Below, in pieces: positions 1 through 7,864 of a stretch of DNA of 7,864 nt (position 1 is its first letter; every line of letters begins with the position of its first letter). Under the pieces are notes generated by a model that was given only the letters and a program-made list of their open reading frames with translations, made no database searches and had not been told where the DNA came from. Source of the DNA: Desulfobacteraceae bacterium (lineage in GTDB: Bacteria; Desulfobacterota; DSM-4660; Desulfatiglandales; HGW-15). A program made the position numbers and the translations under genes. Location of the stretch: the NCBI GenBank assembly GCA_003819975.1, contig RPPU01000197.1:1-7864 (forward strand), read 5' to 3'.

Positions 1-2727
1 GAGGAAGCGGAAGACGATTTCCAACCGGTTGCGACCGGCCCGGACGATCCGGCTTATATCCTTTACACTTCGGGCACGACCGGGAAACCCAAAGGAGTCG
101 TAATTTCCCGCCGGGCGCTCGACCATTATGCCTCCTGGGCTGCCGAAGTCTACGTAGGAGACGAAAACGCTTGTTTTGCTTTTTATACTTCCACGGCCTT
201 TGACCTGACCGTGACTTCGCTTTTCGTGCCCTTCCTGACGGGCAACCTCCTGATCGTATACCGGGACGATGCCCAGGAGTTCAGCCTGCAAAAAGCGCTA
301 CGGGACAACCGGGCCGACATCCTGAAAGCGACTCCGGCGCACTTGGAGCTGCTGGTGGAGGGCGCACCTGAGGGGTTGCGGGTCCGGAAGATTATCGTGG
401 GCGGAGAACAGCTGGAAAGCGGGCTGGCGAACCGGGTGCGGCGGAAGCTGGGGAGCAGGGTCCGTATCTATAATGAATACGGTCCGACCGAAGCCACGGT
501 CGGCTGCATGATCCATGAATTTGATCCGTCCCGGGACCGCGGCGCGTCAGTACCGATCGGGGTTCCGATCGCGGAGACGGCGATCTACGTTCTGGACCGG
601 GCCCGGCAGCCGGTGCCGTTGCAGGTGCGGGGCGAGATTCATATCGGGGGAACCGGGCTGGCGCAGGGTTATTTAAACCGGCCGGAGTTGACGGCCGAGA
701 CGTTTCTGCCGGATCCGTTCGGCCAGGAACCGGGCGCGCGACTCTATAAGACCGGAGACTTGGCGCGCCGGTCGGCGGACGGGAACCTGGAATACCTGGG
801 CCGGTTGGACGAGCAGGTTAAAATCCGCGGATTCCGCATCGAATTGGGCGAAATCGAGACTGTCCTGGCGGAGTACCCGGACCTGCAGCAGTGCCTGGTG
901 ACCGTGCGGCAGGATGCGCAACAGCATAAGTCGCTGTGCGTCTATTTTCGGGCGGCGCGGGAATGCCGGCCCGGAGAAATGCGGTCCTTCCTGCAACAAC
1001 GGCTGCCTGAGTACATGATCCCGACTTATTTTCTGCAATTGGAAACCTGGCCCTTGACCGTCAACGGCAAGGTGGATAAAACAGCCTTGCCCCCTCCGCA
1101 ACCCGGCCACCTTGCCGTCGGCGGGGCCGTTCAAAGCGAACTGGAAGGAGTTTTGGCCCGGGTCTGGCAGGAGGTTTTGGGCGCGGGGCAGGTCGGCCGG
1201 GAAGACAATTTCTTTGCTTTGGGAGGCGATTCGATTAAGGCCATTCAGATCGCGGGCCGGTTGCAGCAGATAGGCCTGCCGGTGCATGCCAAAGATCTTT
1301 TGAGCCAGGCAACGATTGCCCGGCTGGGTTTCCGGCTGCAGACCGCCCACCGTGCGTTTGAACCGGAACAAGGACCGGCGTCCGGATCTTTCGCAATGCC
1401 GCCGATTCATTGCTGGTTCCGGGAGCAGCGCTTCCGAAACCCGAATTTTTACACTCAATCGGTGTTGCTGCGGTTAAAAAAGCCGCTCGCGCTGCCGCCG
1501 TTCGAGCAGGCCTGGGCGCGGATCCTGGAGCATCACGACGGGTTGCGGCTGAATTACGATCGGGAGCACGACCGGCTTTTTTACAATAATGATCATTTAA
1601 AGCAGATGCCGCGCATCGAGTCCTTCGATCTCAGTGCTTTTCCGGCCGCGGAACAGCCGCAAAGCATGCAAAGCATCGGCCGGGAGCTGCGGGCGGGTTT
1701 CGACCTCGGCGGCAGTCTTTTGATGCGTTGCGGCTATTTGATTTGTTCGGAGCAGGAATATTATCTTTTTATAACCGCCCACCATTTTATCATGGACGCC
1801 GTATCCTGGCGGATTCTGCTCGAGGACTGGTTCAACGTCTATCGGGCCCTGGTCTCCGGGACGGCGCCGCTATTGCCGCCCAAAACCGCATCTCTGCAGG
1901 CTTGGCAGGCCAGGTTGCAGGCGCTGCAGGAGCAGGACGACCCGGTTAGGGCCGGCGAACCGGCGGAACAGGCCGCGGACCCGACCGCGGGCGGGCGCAA
2001 GAGCGTGAGCGCGGAACAAGAAGTCCATGAGTTCGCCTTAAGTCCGGAAGACACCGCGGCCTTGAACCGGCATGTCCATCCGCATCTGGACCTCCTTACT
2101 TTTTTGTTGACTGCTTTGGAACGGACGTTCGGAACCGAATCCGCGGACGGGCCGTACGGGGTGCGGCTGGAAATGGAAAGCCATGGCCGGTTGCTGGAGG
2201 AACCGGATGTCAGCCGGACCATCGGCTGGTTCACGGTTCTTTTCCCGCTACGCCTGGTTGCAACCAAGCAAAAAACGGAAGAACGCTTGAAGGAAATCAA
2301 GGAGCAGTATCGAGCGGCTCTGGCCGGGGCCATGGGTTTGTTTTTAAGGCGGTGCGGCCGGGCGGGTTTCCGGGCGACGGGCGTGCCGGGGATCCGTTTC
2401 AATTACCTGGGGGTGATTCAGGAGGGGAATGAGAACGAGGATTACCAATATGATCCCCGGACTTTAGGCCGGGAGAGTGCGGACGAAAACGCTCTGACCG
2501 CCGATCTGGAACTGCAATGCTGGATCGCCGGCGGCCGCCTGCAGGGCCGGATGCTTTATGACGGCGCAAGGTACGGGCGGGATCGCATCGAAGCCTTGGC
2601 AACCGGATTTCAATCAGCATTGCTGGATCTCATCGGGCAGGCTTCCTGCGATCCTTCCGACTATTTTGCTCCTTCCGATTTCGGGCTGGAGATAAGTCAG
2701 GAGAGTCTGGACGCCTTGTTCGGTTGA
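1..2727 (+). CDS. Nonribosomal peptide synthetase, C-terminal part (A-PCP-E), predicted D-Asn module; 5' end outside window
   Basis: The reading frame is open from base 1 to the TGA at 2725-2727 (908 visible residues), so the start and any condensation domain lie to the left. Adenylation motifs in order: A3 LYTSGTTGKPKG (residues 21-32), A4 around FDLTVTS (67-73), A5 NEYGPTE (158-164), A7 YKTGDL, A8 GRLDEQVKIRGFRIELGE, A9 LPEYMIP, A10 NGKVDK. By hand alignment to GrsA the specificity residues are D68, L69, T72, K109, I132, G134, E159, V167, G168 and K357, closest to the asparagine code. The carrier domain has LGGDS with the phosphopantetheine serine at 411. The epimerization domain follows: HHFIMDAVSW (H594, H595, D599), ESHGR (E726), SRTIGWFT and FNYLG. 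It should convert carrier-bound L-Asn to D-Asn in the cytoplasm. There is no thioesterase. The tail SDFGLEISQESLDALFG looks like a short docking end, so the chain probably passes to another NRPS or PKS protein. The following peptidase gene supports an N-acyl-D-Asn role. Confidence 0.95.
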   Translation, partial: EEAEDDFQPVATGPDDPAYILYTSGTTGKPKGVVISRRALDHYASWAAEVYVGDENACFAFYTSTAFDLTVTSLFVPFLTGNLLIVYRDDAQEFSLQKALRDNRADILKATPAHLELLVEGAPEGLRVRKIIVGGEQLESGLANRVRRKLGSRVRIYNEYGPTEATVGCMIHEFDPSRDRGASVPIGVPIAETAIYVLDRARQPVPLQVRGEIHIGGTGLAQGYLNRPELTAETFLPDPFGQEPGARLYKTGDLARRSADGNLEYLGRLDEQVKIRGFRIELGEIETVLAEYPDLQQCLVTVRQDAQQHKSLCVYFRAARECRPGEMRSFLQQRLPEYMIPTYFLQLETWPLTVNGKVDKTALPPPQPGHLAVGGAVQSELEGVLARVWQEVLGAGQVGREDNFFALGGDSIKAIQIAGRLQQIGLPVHAKDLLSQATIARLGFRLQTAHRAFEPEQGPASGSFAMPPIHCWFREQRFRNPNFYTQSVLLRLKKPLALPPFEQAWARILEHHDGLRLNYDREHDRLFYNNDHLKQMPRIESFDLSAFPAAEQPQSMQSIGRELRAGFDLGGSLLMRCGYLICSEQEYYLFITAHHFIMDAVSWRILLEDWFNVYRALVSGTAPLLPPKTASLQAWQARLQALQEQDDPVRAGEPAEQAADPTAGGRKSVSAEQEVHEFALSPEDTAALNRHVHPHLDLLTFLLTALERTFGTESADGPYGVRLEMESHGRLLEEPDVSRTIGWFTVLFPLRLVATKQKTEERLKEIKEQYRAALAGAMGLFLRRCGRAGFRATGVPGIRFNYLGVIQEGNENEDYQYDPRTLGRESADENALTADLELQCWIAGGRLQGRMLYDGARYGRDRIEALATGFQSALLDLIGQASCDPSDYFAPSDFGLEISQESLDALFG

Positions 2728-2789: not shown

Positions 2790-2869
2790 AAAACCTATAA
2801 AATGATAATGCAATGGATTCATAACCTTTTTTGAAAGGCAAGTTGGGTAAAAAGGAGAAGGTGCTGAAA

Positions 2870-4354
2870 ATGAAAAGAAGAACGCTTTTCAATTGGGCGA
2901 TCCTGGGGTGGGTTGTGCTGATGACCGGCGTGTCGGTGCCGACCGGACCGGCGGCCGGCGGCGATCGGGCTTCGGCGGGAGAACAGGAATGGGACCGGAT
3001 CGTAAAAGCGGCCATGAAAAAAAGTTCCACTCCGGGGGCGGCGTTGGCCGTCATCGCCGGGAGCGAAATTCGGTTCGAAAACTACGGCTGGGCCGACCGA
3101 GCCAATCGAATTCCGGTGCGGGAAACCACTCTCTTTCAGGCCGGGTCCATTTCGAAGACCCTGACGGCTTGGGGTGTAATGAAACTGGCAGAGGAAGGCA
3201 AAATCGATTTGAATGCGCCGGTCGAACGCTATCTTAAGCGCTGGCATCTGCCCGACAGCCCGTATGACCGGAAGCAGGTCACGGTGCGTAGGCTGCTGAG
3301 CCATACGGCCGGGCTCTCCCTGCGGGGATATGCCGGGGTTCGGCCGGGAAGGGGGCTGGCCAGCCTGGAGGAATCCCTTTCCGGGAAAACGGGCGGCGCC
3401 GGCGATGTGCGTTTGATCCGGGCGCCGGGAACCGCTTTCCGGTATTCCGGCGGAGGCTATACGCTGTTGCAACTTATGATTGAAGAAGTGTCGGGGATGC
3501 CTTTCGGTCTTTATATGAAAGATAAAATTCTTATTCCTTTGGGGATGAACAGCAGCTTCTTTGAATGGAAAAATGATTTCGGCGCGGATCTGTCGAAAGG
3601 TTACGGGGTTTTGGGCCAGGAACTACCCAATTATCTATTCACGGAAAAAGCGGCCGCCGGCCTGTTTACAACCTCCAAAGATCTTGCGCATTTTGTAACG
3701 GCACATTATCAAACCGACATCGGCCAAATAAAGGGACGCGGAGTATTAAAACCGGAAACTGTGGATCGGATGCATACTATGGCGGAGCCGTATGGCTGGG
3801 GATTAGGTTATTCTGTCTTAACGTTTTCCGACAATCAGAAAGCGATCGGTCATTCGGGAGCCAATCGGGGATGGAGATCTCAGTTTTTCATTTTTCCGCA
3901 AAAATACAGGGGATTGGTCATTTTAACCAATAGCGATTACGGGTCGTATGTCGTACGGGAAGCCGCGGCCTGTTGGATGAAGGAGCAGACCGCATTTCTG
4001 CCAAAGCATTATCTCGCGGCTAAAAGAATCGAATTTCTGTATTTGATCGGAGCCGGCCTCTTGGCACTATTGGATGCCTGGTTATTGGCGGTAGGACTGC
4101 ATGGACTCGTGAAATCAAAAAGATCTTTTGCGCCATTCAAGGCATTGCCTTTTTATAAGAAGTCATTGCGGATTCTTTTCCCCTTGTCGTTGCTGAGTGC
4201 CTGGTGGATCGGTTTGTATGGACCGATCATCCATGGGTGGAATATCGTGGAATTCTTACCGATCAATTTTAAATGGGTTACTTGTGCTTATTCGTTGTTT
4301 TGCGGGGTATTGTTTTTTTTGGGGTTGATTCCGCGGGAAAAGACCCAAAAGTAA
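2870..4354 (+). CDS. Membrane-anchored D-Asn-type prodrug-activating peptidase (ClbP/XcnG/ZmaM-like, peptidase family S12)
   Basis: The 494-residue product from ATG 2870 has a signal peptide (MKRRTLFNWAILGWVVLMTG, positive then hydrophobic), then a beta-lactamase-fold domain: SISK (S93, K96), tyrosine motif YSGGG (Y192) and HSGAN (H328-N332). Three hydrophobic segments follow at about 388-413, 432-454 and 469-487. Signal peptide, S12 domain and three C-terminal helices match ClbP in order and size. As I recall, ClbP has catalytic S95, K98 and Y186, and N331 binds the asparagine side chain; the positions here are close, though numbers alone do not prove alignment. Such enzymes cleave an N-acyl-D-Asn cap outside the cytoplasm. 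The gene starts 142 bases after the D-Asn NRPS module, on the same strand. ATG 2870 follows AAAGGAG (2851-2857) and GAAGG (2857-2861); GTG 2861 and TTG 2831 are in frame but badly spaced. Alternatives are a penicillin-binding-type cyclase (SurE-like) or a resistance beta-lactamase, but neither normally carries three C-terminal helices. Confidence 0.85.
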   Translation: MKRRTLFNWAILGWVVLMTGVSVPTGPAAGGDRASAGEQEWDRIVKAAMKKSSTPGAALAVIAGSEIRFENYGWADRANRIPVRETTLFQAGSISKTLTAWGVMKLAEEGKIDLNAPVERYLKRWHLPDSPYDRKQVTVRRLLSHTAGLSLRGYAGVRPGRGLASLEESLSGKTGGAGDVRLIRAPGTAFRYSGGGYTLLQLMIEEVSGMPFGLYMKDKILIPLGMNSSFFEWKNDFGADLSKGYGVLGQELPNYLFTEKAAAGLFTTSKDLAHFVTAHYQTDIGQIKGRGVLKPETVDRMHTMAEPYGWGLGYSVLTFSDNQKAIGHSGANRGWRSQFFIFPQKYRGLVILTNSDYGSYVVREAAACWMKEQTAFLPKHYLAAKRIEFLYLIGAGLLALLDAWLLAVGLHGLVKSKRSFAPFKALPFYKKSLRILFPLSLLSAWWIGLYGPIIHGWNIVEFLPINFKWVTCAYSLFCGVLFFLGLIPREKTQK

Positions 4355-4378
4355 TACGGTCGTGTCGTTTTTTTCGCA

Positions 4379-4486
4379 ACCATCTTTTTCTTTTTTGTCG
4401 GGGTCTATATGTAATAATCCGGCCGGCCGGTCGGGATGCAAAGAAACCGAAAATTTTTCGAGCGGAAAGGAGAGCCCTTCGCCATC
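4379..4486 (-). pseudogene. Remnant of a second Sfp-type phosphopantetheinyl transferase gene (C-terminal fragment)
   Basis: Read on the - strand from 4483, this fragment encodes GEGLSFPLEKFSVSL followed by HPDRPAGLLHIDPDKK. The intact transferase at 6701-7441 has the same 15 residues followed by NPDLPARLIQVDEEK. At DNA level, 4440-4483 matches 6861-6904 at 38 of 44 positions, and weaker similarity continues down to about 4405. The WTRKEA catalytic segment that should precede GEGLS is not recognisable, the N-terminal half is missing, and the downstream frame runs into the antisense of the peptidase gene. It therefore cannot be functional. Its place, antisense and directly behind the peptidase gene, mirrors the intact transferase behind the 108-residue gene. 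This suggests a duplication, or replacement of an older transferase during cluster rearrangement. Confidence 0.75.
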
Positions 4487-4815
4487 CGGGTCGAAGAAGT
4501 GCAGGACGCGGGATCGGCAGCGATATGAGCGGTTTTTGAAATTTGTTTCCGGAGACCGGGGCTTGTTACCCCGCCGGAATCAATGGATCACCCGAATGCC
4601 GACACCTTTGAATGGGTGCCCGGGGACGCGAAATCCGGATGCTTGTCGTGGAAATCGATTTAGAACGTTGAGACGGAAGCTCCCGTATCATCCGTATGAT
4701 GCATCGACAAACCGCCGCTATCCACCATGAAAAAATCATTTTCGGTTGAAAACGCCCATCTTTGCCGGCGGTTTTCGGATTTCCGCCACTCCCTTTTAAA
4801 AATATACCCATATTC

Positions 4816-5493: not shown

Positions 5494-5624
5494 GAAGCAA
5501 ATAAAATCATAGTCTCCTTTCATGCCGGTAAAACAGGGAAGAAATGATAATGGAATGAACGCTGAGCAGCCGGTCGGATGGAAGACAATTATTCCGAAGT
5601 CCTATTTTTATTAACTAAAAATGC

Positions 5625-5631
5625 AGAGGAG
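5625..5631 (+). promoter_or_regulatory. Ribosome binding site deciding the mbtH start
   Basis: AGAGGAG lies 7 bases before GTG 5639, ideal spacing. The in-frame ATG at 5621 directly abuts this site and would have no site of its own, so GTG 5639 is the likely start. Confidence 0.75.
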
Positions 5632-5638
5632 CAACATC

Positions 5639-5881
5639 GTGAACACTGAAGAAAAAGAAGACAAAACGATTTACAAGGTGGTTTTGAATCATGAGGAGCA
5701 ATATTCCATTTGGCCGGAATACCGCGAAAATGCGTTAGGCTGGCGGGACGCGGGCAAAAAAGGGCTCAAAGACGAATGCCTGGCTTTCATCAAGGAAGTC
5801 TGGACCGACATGCGGCCCTTAAGTCTGCGTAAACATATGGAAGAAGCGGCGCAGCAGAAGGAAGCGCGAAAGGAGAAATAG
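5639..5881 (+). CDS. mbtH: MbtH-family protein (adenylation-domain partner)
   Basis: The 80-residue product starts at GTG 5639 and has the whole MbtH signature: [40 protein letters not shown], including the conserved tryptophans. A charged tail ([13 protein letters not shown]) follows the core, which is otherwise of normal family length of about 65-75 residues. MbtH proteins bind the N-terminal part of NRPS adenylation domains in the cytoplasm and are often needed for their solubility or activity. The likely partner is the synthetase at the left edge and any others in the cluster. The next gene begins 2 bases after the stop, with its ribosome binding site inside the mbtH 3' end, so the two are cotranscribed. 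The family assignment is secure; which adenylation domains depend on it is not visible. Confidence 0.95.
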
Positions 5882-5883
5882 CT

Positions 5884-6192
5884 ATGGCCAACATGGGCAA
5901 ATATTGCAAGGCGTATTCGATTCAAAAGCTGCGCGAATTCAAGGGCTGGAGCGAAAAGCCGGAAAACGCGCGCAAAGAAAAGCAAAAAGGGGCGGACGGC
6001 AAGGAAACGGAAGTCATTCGGCCGTTAACGGATAAGGACTATCTTTATCTGCAGGAAAACTATGTGGTGACCGACGGCATCTATATCGATCAGAATGTCA
6101 TCTTCGATCAAGTGACGCCGGAATGGAAGGTCTTTTGCGATCAGGTTCTTAAGTTTGAAATACCGGATTATGCAAGAGACACGAGTGAGTGA
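5884..6192 (+). CDS. Conserved-looking hypothetical protein (102 aa) in mbtH operon
   Basis: I cannot name a function. The ATG at 5884 follows AGGAG (5871-5875) with 8 bases of spacing and comes 2 bases after the mbtH stop, so it is translationally close to mbtH. The soluble product has no signal peptide or membrane segment. It has a basic N-terminal part (MANMGKYCKAYSIQKLREF), a lysine-rich middle (residues about 28-43) and an aromatic, acidic second half with LYLQENYVVTDGIYIDQ and VTPEWKVFCDQVLKFEIP. I have an unverified memory of similar short proteins beside NRPS genes in cyanobacteria and other bacteria, with the phrase LQENYVVTDGI conserved. Its position suggests a cytoplasmic accessory to the assembly line, but that is inference from context alone. 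Confidence 0.85.
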   Translation: MANMGKYCKAYSIQKLREFKGWSEKPENARKEKQKGADGKETEVIRPLTDKDYLYLQENYVVTDGIYIDQNVIFDQVTPEWKVFCDQVLKFEIPDYARDTSE

Positions 6193-6314: not shown

Positions 6315-6641
6315 ATGGACGAATTAGTACAAAAATTGGCGGCAGGCGATCATCCCATTGTAACTCAACGGTACAAAACGGTTGAAGAATTAAAACAGGC
6401 CATTGACCGGGGTTATGTTCTGATTAAGTTCACGGATACGCGCGGGGGCACGGAATTGGGTGTCCGCCTTGATCAGCAACGAAGCGATTGGAGCAAAGCC
6501 GATTTTGCAAAAGCAACCGGCACGGCGCATTTAGCCGGCGATTTGACGCTCAATTATGTCAAGGTGCGCTGCGTGGCGGATGTGGACCTGTCTGTTTTGG
6601 CAGGTGCAGGCCGTCCGGAGATTGTTTCTCCTTGGAATTAA
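6315..6641 (+). CDS. Conserved-looking hypothetical protein (108 aa), third gene of the mbtH block
   Basis: I do not recognise a named family. ATG 6315 follows AAGGAG (6302-6307) with 7 bases of spacing. The soluble product lacks a signal peptide and membrane segments. It reads like a small folded domain: MDELVQKLAAGDHPI, a helix-like VEELKQAIDRGYVLIKF, then a glycine-rich TDTRGGTELGVRLD and a beta-rich second half (LAGDLTLNYVKVRCVADVDL). I vaguely recall similar GGTELGVRLD proteins near NRPS-type genes but cannot confirm it. The 122-base gap after the preceding gene holds a repeat, so it may be in the same operon or have its own promoter. It converges on the transferase gene, with 59 bases between the two stops and no obvious strong terminator there. 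Confidence 0.85.
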   Translation: MDELVQKLAAGDHPIVTQRYKTVEELKQAIDRGYVLIKFTDTRGGTELGVRLDQQRSDWSKADFAKATGTAHLAGDLTLNYVKVRCVADVDLSVLAGAGRPEIVSPWN

Positions 6642-6700: not shown

Positions 6701-7441
6701 TCAAGCAGCTCCATCCCAATATCGGAAACGAGTTGCGGCGGAAGAAACCGCAACCGCCGCGGCATATTCAGCGCTCACGGATATCTGCCGGATCATCCAG
6801 CTTCGGTTGTCTTGCTTTTCCTCATCGACCTGAATCAATCTGGCCGGTAAATCCGGATTTAGGGAAACGGAAAATTTTTCAAGGGGAAAGGAGAGGCCTT
6901 CGCCGCGCGCCTTGATAAAGGCTTCTTTGCGGGTCCAGCCGCTGAAAAAAGCGCGAGTGAGCAGGTCTGCGGGCAGGCTGCGGAACTCGGTTTTTTCATC
7001 TTCCGAAAAAAAACGGGCGACAATGTCGCGGGCATCTTTTTGCGGGTTGATGTATTCCACGTCCACGCCGATTTCATACGCGCGTGAAAAAGCAAAGAGG
7101 GCCAGTTGATGGGCATGGGAAAGGTTGAAACGAATCGTTGTCTCCGCGGCGGGCAGGGAAGGTTTACCGTAAGGGTTGTATGTGAAGGCGATCGTCTCGG
7201 GGGGTTGGTTTAAATAACGGCCCAGGATGTTCCGCAACGTGCCGCGGGCCGCGATGAAGCGGTTGCGGTCTTTGGCAAAATGAAAGCGTTCGGCCCGGTC
7301 GATTTCGTCTTGCGAGAGAATCCGGGAGAGGGCGAATATCCGCTCTTGCGGTATGTCCAGGGAAGCCTGCCAGATGTGGACTTCCTGATCGCCCAAGTCG
7401 GGGCGGTCGGGCGGTTTTTGCCATAGATCTTGATTCAGCAT
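6701..7441 (-). CDS. 4'-phosphopantetheinyl transferase, Sfp type
   Basis: The 246-residue product carries all Sfp-family motifs: YGKPSL (91-96), FNLSHA (105-110), IGVDVE with Mg-binding D127 and E129, and FFSGWTRKEAFIKARGEGLS (165-184) with W169, K172, E173 and K177. It moves 4'-phosphopantetheine from coenzyme A to the carrier-domain serine, such as S411 of the synthetase at the left edge, in the cytoplasm. Its length is slightly above Sfp (about 224 residues). ATG 7441 follows the thioesterase stop by 6 bases, so the two genes form one operon reading leftward; the ribosome binding site inside the thioesterase end is weak, consistent with coupled translation. A short stretch of the C-terminal part is duplicated as a remnant at 4379-4486. 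The type and the active-site residues are clear. Confidence 0.95.
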   Translation of the reverse strand: MLNQDLWQKPPDRPDLGDQEVHIWQASLDIPQERIFALSRILSQDEIDRAERFHFAKDRNRFIAARGTLRNILGRYLNQPPETIAFTYNPYGKPSLPAAETTIRFNLSHAHQLALFAFSRAYEIGVDVEYINPQKDARDIVARFFSEDEKTEFRSLPADLLTRAFFSGWTRKEAFIKARGEGLSFPLEKFSVSLNPDLPARLIQVDEEKQDNRSWMIRQISVSAEYAAAVAVSSAATRFRYWDGAA

Positions 7442-7447
7442 CGCGTC

Positions 7448-7864
7448 TCAATTCCGGCTGTAAGGTTGCAGGTCGGCGGCGATTAAAGCGGACAGTTCCT
7501 TCAAATGCTCCTGGATGAAAAAATGGCCGCCGTTGAACATGTGCCATTTGAAGGCCGCGCAAGTATGTTTTTGCCAGGCTTTTATTTCCTCTTCATTGAC
7601 TTTGGGGTCGCCTCTTCCGCCGAAAGCGGTCAAGGGACAGGCAAACGGTTCGTCTTCGGGAATCCGATGGGTTTTGATCAGTTCGATATCGGCCCGGAGC
7701 ATGGGTAAAAAGAAATTCAGGATCTCGGGATTCTCCAGGATCAGGCTGGGGATGCCGTCGTATTCCTTGATCTTCTCGAGAAAAGCCTGATCGGACAACA
7801 AATGAATGTCGGGATCTTTTTCCGGCAGGTGCGGCGCCACATGACCGGAGGCGAAGAAATGAAC
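7448..7864 (-). CDS. Type II thioesterase (editing), C-terminal part; 5' end outside window
   Basis: The frame is open from the right edge to the TGA at 7448-7450 (138 residues). It matches the C-terminal part of GrsT-type external thioesterases: FFASGHVAPHLP, LSDQAFLEKIKEYDGIP, PEILNFFLPMLRADIEL, TAFGGRGDP and FNGGHFF. The catalytic aspartate (GRGDP, visible residue 86) and histidine (GGHFF, residue 114) are present; the GxSxG serine lies beyond the window. Such enzymes hydrolyse wrong or stalled acyl groups from NRPS or PKS carrier domains and so restore blocked assembly lines. The internal GTG at 7838-7840 is not a real start, because the conserved sequence continues upstream of it. The gene is followed after 6 bases by the phosphopantetheinyl transferase, a common pairing in NRP clusters. 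Confidence 0.93.
   Translation of the reverse strand, partial: VHFFASGHVAPHLPEKDPDIHLLSDQAFLEKIKEYDGIPSLILENPEILNFFLPMLRADIELIKTHRIPEDEPFACPLTAFGGRGDPKVNEEEIKAWQKHTCAAFKWHMFNGGHFFIQEHLKELSALIAADLQPYSRN

Follow-up and report, generated by a model that had tools for sequence, protein, structure and literature searches.

A stretch of 7,864 nucleotides of contig RPPU01000197.1 from a Desulfobacteraceae bacterium (assembly GCA_003819975.1), hereafter the window, which seems to span this metagenome contig from end to end, carries the gene of an S12 serine peptidase directly behind a nonribosomal peptide synthetase (NRPS) module, raising the question of whether this peptidase activates a self-protected product, as ClbP and other prodrug-activating peptidases do. 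Our answer, to which we assign a probability of about one half, is that it is a membrane-anchored, outward-facing peptidase of a second S12 lineage that may have been co-opted to strip the exported product of an acyl-D-Asn cap. What carries this answer was read or predicted from sequence, namely the Asn code and epimerization (E) domain of the module, its adjacency to the peptidase, the catalytic motifs and topology of the latter, and three pairs of relatives on contigs of equal size.

The peptidase and the module before it

The features on which the question turns are the following.

1..2727, + strand: 3' part of an NRPS gene, with an adenylation (A) domain cut by the window start, a carrier (T) at about 1153-1326 and an E domain at about 1411-2679 (Pfam, code extraction, E motifs by eye)
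2852..2857, + strand: AAGGAG, probable ribosome-binding site ahead of the peptidase ORF (sequence)
2870..4354, + strand: S12 serine peptidase of 494 amino acids (aa), with signal peptide, extracytoplasmic catalytic domain and three transmembrane (TM) helices (open reading frame (ORF), Pfam, model, Foldseek)
2870..2959, + strand: signal peptide or N-terminal anchor, aa 1-30 (hydropathy; low-confidence start of the model)
3146..3157, + strand: catalytic S93-I-S-K96, with Q90, three residues earlier, in place of ClbP E92 (alignments)
3443..3451, + strand: Y192-S-G194, with Gly at the position of ClbP S188 (alignments)
3851..3865, + strand: H328-S-G-A-N332, N332 aligning with ClbP N331 (alignments)
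4004..4327, + strand: three predicted TM helices, aa 379-414, 428-450 and 467-486, with G456-W457...F462-L463-P464 in the linker between the second and third (AlphaFold model; linker alignment)

The peptidase ORF starts with ATG, matches PF00144 (E 4.7e-62) and opens with a hydrophobic stretch at aa 5-23 that is preceded by K-R-R, as judged by hydropathy. In the AlphaFold model (pLDDT 91.5), the catalytic domain is followed by three C-terminal helices, of which hydropathy alone, at cut-offs of 1.6 and 1.5, recovers two in the window protein and all three in P0003, P0004 and others. Foldseek returned full-length ClbP (7mdc) as its first match (E 3.5e-23, 478 alignment columns, reaching into the TM part), and a profile of the window family likewise matches 7mdc through the TM part (profile 41-489). 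The same plan, an S12 catalytic domain with a signal peptide and three C-terminal TM helices, is found in ClbP and in XcnG, AmiB, ZmaM, EdeA and PamJ, which also carry an Asn equivalent to N331 and are encoded next to an Asn module with a terminal E domain; the window peptidase differs from this set in having no fused ABC half-transporter. Along its gene the GC content drops from about 61% to about 43%, yet relatives match over nearly the whole length.

The NRPS gene lies on the same strand as the peptidase, and its protein terminates after the E domain, with no thioesterase domain among its Pfam matches. The third domain matches the condensation superfamily in Pfam and was assigned as E from ITAHHFIMDAVSW, ESHGR and FNYLG, which we take to be E-domain motifs. 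The specificity code of the A domain is DLTKIGEVGK, presumably that of Asn, and its first nine residues are the same in 13 of 13 stand-alone modules near ClbP-type genes (within about 6 kb) and in 95 of the 119 NRPS search matches, the one named EdeP among them. A condensation (C) domain was not seen and would lie before the window, whose start truncates the A domain; nor is a warhead, exporter or starter C domain visible within the 7,864 nt. The signal peptide, the SxxK, Tyr and HSGxN motifs, the three C-terminal helices and the same-strand neighbour of A, peptidyl carrier protein (PCP) and E domains with an Asn-like code had all been named in the original prediction, and all were recovered here.

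In our trees, with support given as SH-aLRT (an approximate likelihood-ratio test), the window A-T-E and L097 of genome G442 belong to one set of nine rows (support 97 in one tree and 96 in another); L097 is the sister of the window module at 97 in a smaller tree, and in the tree giving 96 the nearest row is P0149, again inside the set. This sequence-based position is unsure because the branch of the window module is long. The set is distinct both from the multi-module Asn domains and from the 13 starters encoded close to ClbP-type genes; the window module resembles starters of the EdeP/ClbN type (C-A-T-E, Asn) in its Asn code and terminal E domain (EdeP-named match, 38%), but belongs to a third set, with its C domain outside the window. 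L097 forms the end of a protein of 2,157 aa whose domains are AMP-binding, carrier, C, A, carrier and E-type. The first part of this protein best matches a fatty acyl-AMP ligase (FAAL) model of NCBIfam (367.5 of 600 bits, below the cut-off), and this starter apparently has an acyl-cap loader built in. Heading a series of co-directional NRPS genes, the FAAL-like-carrier-C-A(Asn)-T-E gene opens a cluster at about 114-150 kb of G442:C3 (L129, L128 and L135) that holds, 27 kb downstream, a 1,051-aa S12-ABC fusion of the ZmaM kind.

For the window itself, the acyl cap, export, cleavage and product activity are what we infer. The NRPS, with a C domain before the window, would load Asn and epimerize it to D-Asn; the acylated D-Asn would cap a nonribosomal product at its N terminus; this product, inactive while capped, would be exported; and the peptidase, with S93 as nucleophile and K96/Y192 as base, would cut the amide after acyl-D-Asn at the membrane surface, freeing the active compound.

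A terminal PCP-E could also be served by a stand-alone release enzyme of the penicillin-binding protein type that offloads the peptide, such as SurE or Ulm16, which share the S12 fold and act beside NRPSs ending in an E domain. Those cyclases are cytosolic and without TM helices, whereas the signal peptide and three TM helices predicted here by model and hydropathy would put the active site on the far side of the membrane from the carrier; in the profile search, moreover, SurE and Ulm16 scored 93.7 and 83.6 bits against 108.7 for full-length ClbP. This topology led us to reject such a release function, which we regard as very improbable. A class C beta-lactamase was rejected as well: these enzymes have YxN and KTG motifs, while Y-S-G and H-S-G were found in the window protein, and the NCBIfam score is 90.9 bits against a cut-off of 415. 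The original prediction had asked for a tree with AmpC and SurE-type cyclases; the window peptidase did not group with the one AmpC row included, and for SurE the comparison was confined to structure and sequence searches. A plasmid tblastn search yielded, among the best 60 of 1832 records, only generic S12 proteins and beta-lactamases.

Relatives apparently paired with Asn modules

Across 161 peptidase relatives and 119 NRPS relatives (best 120 rows per search used, the NRPS search keeping proteins of 0.55-1.75 times the query length, which favours single-module NRPSs), three pairs lie on contigs of identical base count: P0079/P0151 (190,352), P0244/P0184 (24,815) and P0116/P0141 (9,641). The chance expectation for such pairs is a mean of 0.22, with a maximum of 2 at 400 non-zero offsets, and the sources, member counts and contig counts agree inside each pair; the sharing of contigs is nevertheless deduced from equal sizes and not from DNA, and a shared 190-kb contig does not amount to adjacency. 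The NRPS partners P0151, P0184 and P0141 are C-A-T-E proteins of 1,497-1,512 aa with the codes DLTKIGEVG, DLTKIGEVG and DFTKIGEVG; in the tree, P0151 and P0141 are placed with the starters found close to ClbP-type genes (a set of 29 rows at 96), and P0184 lies on that side at 94, not starred. The peptidase partners P0079, P0244 and P0116 all belong to the window branch and carry the residues Q-G-N at the positions of ClbP E92, S188 and N331; signal and TM segments are present in P0079 and P0244 and absent from P0116.

In genome G474 (L068 9392-19901 and L127; G474:C1, about 2851-2881 kb), a run of polyketide synthase (PKS) and NRPS genes, all in one direction, ends with the gene of another relative, of 384 aa. 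The run encodes, in order, a NusG-like protein, C-A(DLTKVGEVG)-T-E, a methyltransferase, NRPS, acyltransferase and PKS proteins, two ABC half-transporters and the S12 protein, whose gene is the only S12 gene found in it; no peptidase of the ClbP clade was found in the run. A general absence of relatives from NRPS clusters was rejected as a conclusion, the first scan having missed this cluster. By hydropathy, both the G474 relative and P0116 are without signal peptide or TM segments, and for this reason they are weak parallels to the window peptidase. All five NRPS-linked relatives have Q-G-N, a count confounded by their having been found through window-like queries. We put forward only tentatively, with somewhat less confidence than the reading of the window itself, that removal of acyl-D-Asn caps has been taken up, perhaps on more than one occasion, by a second S12 lineage (Q92/G188/N331, G-W...L/M-P linker).

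Lineage and pocket residues of the peptidase

Alongside the indirect evidence for shared contigs and the two relatives devoid of TM segments, the lineage of the peptidase, its pocket and the surroundings of its relatives weigh against a role in cap removal. In quick trees of 64 and 72 rows, the ClbP clade (22 rows) and the window clade are separated at 98-99 in both, and the window peptidase groups at 99-100 with nine of the proteins P0003-P0017. These nine, membrane S12 proteins of Clostridia/Bacillota labelled “CubicO group,” are 45-54% identical to the window peptidase and share with it the Q-G-N residues, a G-W-N...F-L-P linker and the TM region; we know of no function for them. An approximately unbiased (AU) test in IQ-TREE with 41 rows rejected holding the window protein with ClbP (deltaL 54, p 6e-5); treekit's AU test, run with the quick tree of 72 rows, disagrees in not rejecting that grouping (p 0.44). 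We trust the former more, a judgement made because free and held trees were there searched alike under one model. Based on this test and on the residues described below, the sequences place the window peptidase outside the ClbP/ZmaM clade, in another Bacillota S12 branch. A single-sequence search, too, ranks ClbP under Pab87, IS11, Flp, SurE and others, and the closest solved sequences are generic S12 enzymes, e.g., Pab87 (2qmi), Flp and IS11.

In its available text, PMC9889268 describes N331, Ser or Thr at 188, E92, W460 and W466 as conserved in known prodrug-activating peptidases, and reports that ClbP is impaired or abolished by S188A, N331A and W466A; the E92Q variant retains D-Asn cleavage and gains D-Asp cleavage. 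In our alignments, E92, Ser/Thr188 and N331 each occur in 22 of 22 ClbP-clade rows, whereas the window protein has Gln90, Gly194 and Asn at these positions. Its lone linker Trp, W457, aligns to W460 in two alignments, leaving Phe or Leu at 466, and to W466 in a third; Trp stands at 466 in 20 of 20 ClbP-type loci in one alignment. Membership of the ClbP clade is contradicted by the trees, the IQ-TREE test and the residues at 92 and 188, and the designation as a ClbP/XcnG/ZmaM-type enzyme given in the original prediction was not supported, the protein lying outside that clade and lacking E92, Ser/Thr188 and probably W466. The ClbP layout itself stood, but the HSGxN motif is not special to prodrug peptidases: the N331 equivalent is also present in 9 of 25 relatives with no NRPS in the fetched stretch. 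Because of this count, N331 does not discriminate for D-Asn recognition, and N332 was discarded as proof of D-Asn specificity.

A pocket unlike that of ClbP at positions 92 and 188 would also fit a cluster member engaged in self-protection or trimming, which would degrade re-entering product or, outside the cell, cleave some other bond at a D-residue, D-configured bonds being frequent targets of S12 enzymes. Such a role gives no reason why the recurring partners should be Asn C-A-T-E modules, and we consider it improbable.

Genomic surroundings and significance

The surroundings of the relatives bear most directly on the main rival to cap removal, according to which the protein would be a common Bacillota cell-surface S12 hydrolase, acting on a D-peptide, cell-wall or lipid substrate, and found by chance within an NRPS cluster or on its border. 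The window branch is indeed widespread, the query P0244 being matched in 18 of 387 sampled genomes at E 1e-60, and the generic S12 enzymes closest in sequence point the same way. Around 15 genome loci of the branch, an A or E domain was present in none of the scanned stretches, which measured 3.9 to 19.9 kb and in several cases were cut by contig ends, the initial scan having reached about 10 kb or less per side and covered A and E domains only. Twelve further stretches, a thirteenth locus of 3.1 kb being left aside, likewise had neither domain, apart from one weak A-domain-like match (52.8 bits, in a 537-aa ORF). An A+E module thus occurs in 0 of 27 fetched stretches, a scarcity of linkage in the branch that favours the chance rival; one of the 27, that of G474, does carry PKS and C domains. 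Searches by order and class near the closest genomes returned only the known match (1/10, 1/29 and 1/13). In G542, a peptidase relative is split over two frames and is probably a broken gene (L174 9696-11194).

In the order to which G070 belongs, presumably Paenibacillales, the stretches around 20 ClbP-type peptidases contained an Asn C-A-T-E gene in six cases, directly before the peptidase in five and 3.2 kb before it in one; two more of the 20 loci had other A domains only. Within its available text, PMC9889268 reports, for its network, NRPS neighbours only for clusters of known prodrug peptidases and regards the other clusters as unlikely prodrug enzymes.

Downstream of the peptidase, the window carries the following features.

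4355..4498, - strand: remnant of a second 4'-phosphopantetheinyl transferase (PPTase) gene, about 48 codons, partly alignable (repeat search; tblastn E 4e-12, blastn 79% over 68 bp)
5621..5881, + strand: MbtH-like protein, 86 aa (PF03621, E 3.9e-20)
5884-6192, + strand: small ORF of 102 aa after MbtH; no Pfam, NCBIfam or PHROGs family
6315-6641, + strand: small ORF of 108 aa; sub-threshold CBF_beta match only, no other Pfam, NCBIfam or PHROGs family
6701..7441, - strand: PPTase, 246 aa (PF01648 and PF22624; HetI model 210.9 bits, under the cut-off of 370)
7448..7864, - strand: thioesterase, cut by the window end (PF00975, E 7.7e-15)

The similarity of the decayed piece to the intact PPTase gene at 6701-7441 suggests duplication and decay beside the peptidase, and a local rearrangement just behind the gene is a further point in favour of chance neighbourhood. 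However, the adjacency to an Asn A-T-E, the MbtH, PPTase and thioesterase genes beyond, the three contig pairings and the G474 run are together more than one would look for around a random neighbour, and we hold a chance neighbour to be possible but unlikely. Of the NRPS-linked prodrug-activation pathway originally proposed, the architecture, Asn code, E domain, co-directional neighbour, NRPS-related genes on the far side and apparently co-occurring relatives are in agreement with our results, and the ClbP-type identity is not.

Among the matches listed in our literature searches, there was no prodrug peptidase from another S12 branch, which is the sole basis for calling such a pathway undescribed; TM-bearing S12 clusters other than the known ones are set aside as unlikely prodrug enzymes in the available text of PMC9889268. 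A prodrug-activating peptidase marks its gene cluster as the source of a potent, self-protected product; were a second clade to fulfil this role with a different pocket, clusters of this kind would escape the current marker residues. Should our reading be true, D-Asn recognition would be possible without Ser/Thr188 and Glu92, and an Asn C-A-T-E module together with any TM-bearing S12 protein would be a better search handle. Some members of the window branch would then have gone unnoticed as signposts to self-protected products in uncultured Bacillota.
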